In this document: positions 2,139 through 2,555 of the stretch, in pieces
How positions within the stretch are numbered: the first letter of the stretch is position 1
Layout: each line of letters opens with the position of its first letter
From: Thermus aquaticus
GTDB taxonomy: Bacteria; Deinococcota; Deinococci; Deinococcales; Thermaceae
Reading direction: 5' to 3'
Assembly: GCF_001280255.1 (NCBI RefSeq)
Contig: NZ_LHCI01000106.1
Location: 2,013,832 to 2,072,904 of the forward strand
Length of the DNA stretch: 59,073 nucleotides
Translations under genes and position numbers: made by a program
Notes under the pieces: model-generated
Told to the model about the DNA's origin: nothing
The model's database searches: none
Seen by the model: the letters and a program-made list of their open reading frames with translations, nothing else

Positions 2139-2555
2139 CTAACCCTCCTTCCCGCCAAAACCGCGGCGCTTGATGGCGTGCTCGGTGCCCCGCCAGTAGC
2201 GGAAGGCGGACTCCTCCTTGGCCCCGAAGGCCCGGGAGAGGCCCTTCAGCACCTCCTCGGGGTCCACGCCGTCCCGGTAGAAGTAAAGGTCCAAGGTGGC
2301 GGAGGCGTTATCCTCGGGCCAGGTGTGGATCATCACCGCGGCCACGGGGCTCACCACCGCCGCCGAGAGCCCCTGCGGGTGGAACTTGTAGACCACCGAC
2401 TGGGCCGAGCCCTTGGGGGCCCCCAGGCGCATCACCGCATCCAAAAGGGCCGCTTCCACCATCCTGGGGTTTTCCAGCACGTCCAGGTCGCACCCGTAGA
2501 TCTCCGCCACCCAGCGCCCGCCCGGCACCGTTTCCACAAGGGTCCATGTTAGCAC
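2139..2555 (-). CDS. SpeD-like (S-adenosylmethionine decarboxylase family) protein lacking the pyruvoyl serine
   Basis: The 138-residue protein aligns over its length with bacterial SpeD. It keeps [13 protein letters not shown] (with the conserved GLS serine) and the invariant IHTWPE block at residues 76-81. In active SpeD the strand before IHTWPE carries E-S-H, and cleavage there turns the serine into the pyruvoyl cofactor. Here the aligned residues are V71-A72-A73, so neither the serine nor the histidine is present. The catalytic cysteine site after DL also reads tyrosine. The protein should not self-process and is probably a regulatory or allosteric partner, or has a new role. GTG start 1 base after the ftsK stop; translation runs on into speE. 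Confidence 0.85.

Follow-up and report, generated by a model that had tools for sequence, protein, structure and literature searches.

A SpeD homologue without the pyruvoyl serine as a candidate partner of an intact SpeD in Thermus

Directly upstream of speE, Thermus aquaticus encodes a SpeD homologue (SpeD1) that lacks the pyruvoyl serine. SpeD1 is probably catalytically dead and an obligate, unfused partner of a second, intact SpeD (SpeD2) encoded elsewhere in the same genome; it would bind SpeD2 and complete its active site. The best explanation of the data is that SpeD1 corresponds, in bacteria, to the half of eukaryotic AdoMetDC that acts as a scaffold, with a function like that of prozyme, and we infer a SpeD1:SpeD2 heterodimer in which residues are supplied in trans and SpeD2 is the AdoMetDC. 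Positions refer to the window, which is the whole 59,073-nucleotide stretch of DNA analysed.

2139-2555, minus strand: speD1, an ORF with a GTG start encoding a 138-aa SpeD homologue (PF02675) without the pyruvoyl serine
2337-2348, minus strand: codons of P70-V71-A72-A73, aligned with S/A-E-S-H of active SpeDs
2277-2279, minus strand: codon of Y93, aligned with the catalytic C83
2313-2384, minus strand: kept half-site, F58 to E81, invariant in 36/36 and 37/37 sequences
1192-2136, minus strand: speE, an aminopropyltransferase gene, always directly downstream of speD1

The residues of SpeD1 were assigned by HMMER alignment to the class 1b SpeD of T. maritima (1tmi/1tlu), in which the self-cleavage site comprises residues 61-64. 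There is no serine at the cleavage position in this alignment: E62, S63 and H64 are replaced by V71, A72 and A73, respectively, and C83 by Y93. The initial annotation had read the same two changes, E-S-H to V71-A72-A73 and the catalytic cysteine to tyrosine, and since the HMMER alignment gives the same register a misalignment was rejected. SpeD1 resembles the T. maritima protein in its fold, in its PF02675 match (80.4 bits, E 1.5e-22, 107 positions in Pfam) and in the residues F49, S55, H68, W70 and E72, which are kept as F58, S64, H77, W79 and E81; it differs in having lost E62, S63, H64 and C83, and it scores below the cut-off of the NCBIfam AdoMetDC equivalog TIGR03330 (59.6 versus 75.65 bits). 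By sequence, therefore, SpeD1 is a class 1b SpeD homologue that falls outside the active members of the class, and its residues indicate that a pyruvoyl cannot form at the S63-equivalent site. According to the residue table it likewise lacks the pyruvoyl serine that serves as a criterion for the SpeDA and SpeDC arginine or ornithine decarboxylases (PMC10407285). The rest of the protein appears preserved, as had been claimed: AlphaFold2 predicts a SpeD fold (mean pLDDT 81.6, pTM 0.75), and for an orthologue from a different family (G050) the model aligns with T. maritima SpeD at a TM-score of 0.82 by target length (Foldseek). In the SpeD1 model, A72 and H77 share one strand (residues 72-79), so His77 is unlikely to serve the site of its own protomer. 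SpeD1 is encoded by an ORF of its own, which ends in a stop codon, and is not fused to the aminopropyltransferase.

A search found SpeD1 in 57 of the 111 genomes of the class, including all Thermus examined and their relatives with this pathway, the three weakest matches, in family f5, being other SpeDs and not SpeD1. The gene lies directly upstream of speE in all 57, in agreement with the adjacency noted initially. E62, S63 and C83 are absent from every SpeD1 read (36 aligned sequences; 37 distinct cores), this being the outcome of the alignment of homologues at the cleavage site that had been called for, and F49, S55, H68, W70 and E72 are invariant in the same two sets (36/36 and 37/37). Among the SpeD1 loci read, T. 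thermophilus is represented by its near relative T. parvatiensis. Across the 37 cores, 35 of 101 positions are invariant, and the median dN/dS is 0.11 (662 pairs with dS below 1.5). A sequencing error or a pseudogene was rejected on these grounds, because the residue losses recur in every SpeD1 and the 37 cores are conserved with a dN/dS of 0.11. The tree gives SpeD1 a single origin (support 100/100) on the side of the canonical class 1b SpeDs; SpeD2 falls in a different, partly viral clade, and a recent duplication of SpeD2 was thus rejected. Two strict peptide patterns, which do not amount to an exhaustive search, recovered no SpeD1 outside Deinococcota, 28 of their 29 matches being Deinococcota SpeD1s and the other a canonical Ramlibacter SpeD. 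No phage or plasmid SpeD1 was found either, all the matches read being canonical SpeDs.

SpeD2, which the initial annotation missed, has an intact motif (AESHIAIHTFPKK...SCKAFD) in the same T. aquaticus genome (L001) and passes the TIGR03330 cut-off at 83.1 bits. E62, S63, H64 and C83 are kept in 38 of 38 aligned SpeD2 sequences. F49 is lost, position 70 holds F and position 72 holds K, E, S, R, D or A; gap placement at position 49 is ambiguous, with Tyr in one alignment and other residues in another, never Phe. The clade of SpeD2, distinct from that of SpeD1, is shared with viral proteins, and F49, W70 and E72 are lost throughout it, being missing or variable also in viral members for which the available record shows no second SpeD. 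These losses are thus older than, or independent of, the association with SpeD1 and need not reflect it; the loss of E72, at one point taken as proof of pairing, was downgraded to consistent with it, since viral SpeD2-type proteins also lack this residue. S55T is also seen in the SpeDs of Aquifex and phage S-PM2. P71 and E72 are changed in the SpeD of phage phiYS40, which is nevertheless active in E. coli (PMC9992855), so some such positions are tolerant. In a single MAG (G053), SpeD2 carries Q in place of H68, with S63 and C83 intact (L186, G053:C13), and the SpeD1 of this genome keeps His at that position; all other intact SpeD2s keep H68, and G053 is a natural test of the supply of a histidine in trans.

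The Microcystis phage MaAM05 (L167 3486-6264, deposited as a phage genome) carries a canonical speD in tandem with a SpeD2-type speD, followed by speE and speB. The two SpeDs could be an AdoMetDC and an arginine decarboxylase of the pyruvoyl type, or a SpeD pair of ancestral type. Because of this arrangement, SpeD2 was considered as an arginine decarboxylase. This role is disfavoured in Thermus, where a PLP-type SpeA is present, so that SpeD2 is not needed for it, and where there is no other pyruvoyl-capable SpeD.

The two proteins are retained, or lost, as a pair. A SpeD2 in which S63 and C83 are both intact occurs in 56 of the 57 genomes with SpeD1 and in 1 of the 54 without it; the motif was read in about 45 of these genomes, and in the others it was judged by how large the family match was. 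The two exceptions are incomplete genomes: G042 (65% complete) has SpeD1 without an intact SpeD2, and G071 (76% complete) has the reverse. The Fisher p value of 1.6e-29 ignores the relatedness of the genomes, and much of the co-occurrence is accounted for by vertical inheritance alone; the lineages without SpeD1 are the less dependent part of the evidence. Where both SpeD1 and SpeD2 are absent, speE either is missing as well or has a complete SpeD, of class 1a or 1b, as its partner. Neither SpeD nor speE is found in G006 and G020, and a class 1b SpeD that is complete but of a different kind is present in G108 and G109. In genus g13 of family f4 (L171, L172, L174), an E. coli-like class 1a SpeD replaces the SpeD1/SpeD2 pair, and its gene adjoins a divergent speE (42-47% identical). 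G052 has neither speE nor SpeD1, and its SpeD2 has V at C83. Deinococcaceae-like genomes, also among the lineages without SpeD1, retain proteins of the SpeD2 lineage that have lost catalytic residues.

In the bacterial SpeD dimer the protomers face each other, and the pyruvoyl of one works with substrate-binding and processing residues that the other provides. Thermus would divide these two roles between two proteins: the pyruvoyl serine and the catalytic cysteine would come from SpeD2, and Phe58, Ser64, His77, Trp79 and Glu81 would be contributed by SpeD1 for AdoMet binding and for the support of self-processing, SpeD1 helping SpeD2 to do both. The heterodimer would contain a single composite working site and would make dcAdoMet for the SpeE encoded directly downstream of speD1. 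One alpha-beta-beta-alpha sandwich corresponds to two bacterial SpeDs; in eukaryotes the two are fused in a single chain, and its C-terminal half is without a pyruvoyl (PMC5201418, PMC10407285). The active site of the T. brucei enzyme is lined by the pyruvoyl and C100 from the N-terminal sheet and by Y243, S249 and E266 from the C-terminal one (PMC5201418). The spacings of 6 and 17 residues are identical in Y243-S249-E266 of T. brucei, F49-S55-E72 of T. maritima and F58-S64-E81 of SpeD1. Because these spacings and the kept residues match, SpeD1 resembles a detached C-terminal half of a class 2 AdoMetDC, and SpeD2 a detached N-terminal half. The division of the class 2 site is found here between two proteins, the dead SpeD1 keeping the binding and processing set and SpeD2 the pyruvoyl serine and the cysteine, presumably acting in trans. 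The class 2 C-terminal half also has no pyruvoyl, keeps the Phe/Tyr-Ser-Glu set and needs a pyruvoyl-bearing other half, as proposed for SpeD1, but the latter is a separate, unfused gene product of an independent bacterial lineage.

Two further systems are comparable. The trypanosomatid prozyme, like SpeD1, is a catalytically dead AdoMetDC paralogue beside an active copy; in Thermus, too, one genome holds a dead paralogue and one with an intact motif, from which the activity of the latter is predicted. Unlike SpeD1, prozyme belongs to class 2, is a full double-sandwich subunit and relieves autoinhibition, and it has been described as limited to trypanosomatids (PMC5201418). SpeD1 does not share its descent, being a 138-aa single domain placed among the class 1b SpeDs in the tree. 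Fusions of a SpeD to a degraded SpeD domain, known from Victivallis vadensis, other Lentisphaerota and Desulfobacteria (PMC10407285), resemble the Thermus case in combining an active bacterial SpeD with a dead one, but they are one polypeptide, with the dead part derived from an ornithine decarboxylase-like SpeD, whereas Thermus has two unlinked genes. Precedents therefore exist for dead paralogues (prozyme) and for fused dead SpeD domains; what appears to be new is a dead bacterial SpeD that is a protein by itself and has retained the complementary half-site. A broader proposal, which we hold tentatively and with slightly less than even confidence, is that AdoMetDC in Thermus is split by nature, its single composite site being formed by an asymmetric heterodimer whose two genes are unlinked. 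It would be the first bacterial free-standing counterpart of the eukaryotic AdoMetDC halves and would have been reached independently, by the pairing of two ancient SpeD lineages, one of which lost the pyruvoyl serine.

For SpeD1, the initial annotation had suggested an activator, a SpeE subunit, a subunit of a second SpeD or a new activity. A subunit of a second SpeD is now favoured, because an intact SpeD2 exists, the active-site residues of the two proteins are complementary and both are kept or lost together; a new activity found no positive support. The main rival is that SpeD1 is a non-catalytic subunit of SpeE, acting in dimerisation, stability or the hand-over of dcAdoMet. The N-terminal domain of human spermine synthase (3c6k) is a dead AdoMetDC-like dimerisation domain and hence, like SpeD1, a dead SpeD fold tied to an aminopropyltransferase, although it is fused, and the Thermus protein is encoded by a separate, adjacent gene and keeps the AdoMet-site residues. 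The invariable position of speD1 directly upstream of speE (57/57) and the Foldseek match of the SpeD1 orthologue model to 3c6k (E 1.5e-6) speak for such a subunit. However, the kept residues, which are those of the AdoMet site, would be needless in it, and we consider this rival unlikely, because other Deinococcota SpeEs without SpeD1 pair with a complete SpeD and T. thermophilus speE alone yields thermospermine in E. coli (PMC11107197).

Somewhat less likely still is an allosteric activator or sensor (for instance of AdoMet, agmatine or polyamines) that would activate SpeD2, in the manner of the trypanosome prozyme, without giving it active-site residues. Such a role would suit a dead paralogue that has an active relative and whose deletion reportedly has a strong effect (PMC6418473), and has the precedent of prozyme (PMC5201418), but by itself leaves the strict conservation of the exact F-S-H-W-E half-site unexplained. 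Catalysis through a relocated serine would rely on S69 (window 2349-2351), three residues upstream of the lost one, which is Ser in 37 of 37 distinct cores and I, L or V, never Ser, in the active SpeDs of the residue table. This is very improbable, as C83 is Tyr, E62 and H64 are lost too, and S69 precedes the start of the strand in the AlphaFold2 model; we know of no precedent for a three-residue shift of the cleavage serine. The loss of four active-site residues could also suggest a decaying or functionless relic, the least probable of all and contradicted by the data, given the dN/dS of 0.11, the 35 invariant core positions of 101, the predicted intact fold and the 57/57 synteny.

Long and branched polyamines, which T. 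thermophilus needs above 75 C, require dcAdoMet. In T. thermophilus, SpeD1 is TTC0473, SpeE is TTC0472 (PMC4021367; speE is also given as TTHA0824, PMC9654539) and SpeD2 is TTC1093, so that the presence of two speD genes was already annotated (PMC4021367); the product is called 'SpeD-like protein 1' in a review, which reports that long and branched polyamines are not made upon deletion of speD1 (PMC6418473). This phenotype, read so far as the loss of a decarboxylase-like enzyme, fits a SpeD1:SpeD2 enzyme, but since speD1 abuts speE the deletion could instead act through a polar effect on the latter. The literature search returned no statement that SpeD1 lacks the pyruvoyl serine and no proposal of a SpeD1-SpeD2 enzyme. 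If SpeD1 is dead and SpeD2 depends on it, the deletion phenotype, the expression of SpeD2 alone and the pathway annotation, where both are entered as polyamine-synthesis genes, need rethinking. The SpeD1:SpeD2 pair, if real, would be a present-day bacterial model of the step that leads from a symmetric homodimer of SpeD to the asymmetric enzyme of eukaryotes. It would also be a case, in a prokaryote, of an obligate dead paralogue within the family from which prozyme arose.

The neighbourhood of speD1 and speE contains the following features:

2557-5154, minus strand: ftsK-like gene, directly upstream of speD1 in Thermus
545-1171, minus strand: DsbA-like thioredoxin-fold gene, downstream of speE
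5163-5190, minus strand: terminator-like hairpin upstream of ftsK

An ftsK-speE transcript including speD1 had been claimed. Its speE link holds throughout (57/57), and the gaps of 1 nt (ftsK/speD1) and 2 nt (speD1/speE) suggest a single transcript, but the ftsK link is restricted to all the Thermus loci read and to only some of the other Thermaceae loci. The hairpin is likely the upstream border of the transcription unit, although it is weak evidence, since such sites are fewer than in shuffles, and the DsbA-like gene is probably a mere neighbour. In genus g14 of family f4 (G065-G068, G070), each genome has two speE genes, one of them adjoining speD1.

Degenerate proteins of the SpeD2 lineage are found in the Deinococcaceae-like family f5 (L175-L179, L183-L185, L188, L190; e.g. 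L178 and L190), mostly in genomes without a dedicated speE. All have lost C83, and some S63; they keep a C-terminal motif, G/S-E/D-R-x-Y/W, form one clade (100/100) and probably have a non-decarboxylase role. Finally, a protein of a Rhizobium symbiotic plasmid annotated as AdoMetDC (L194) has Asn at the H68 position (ESHICVNTWHEE), and this activity may be misannotated.
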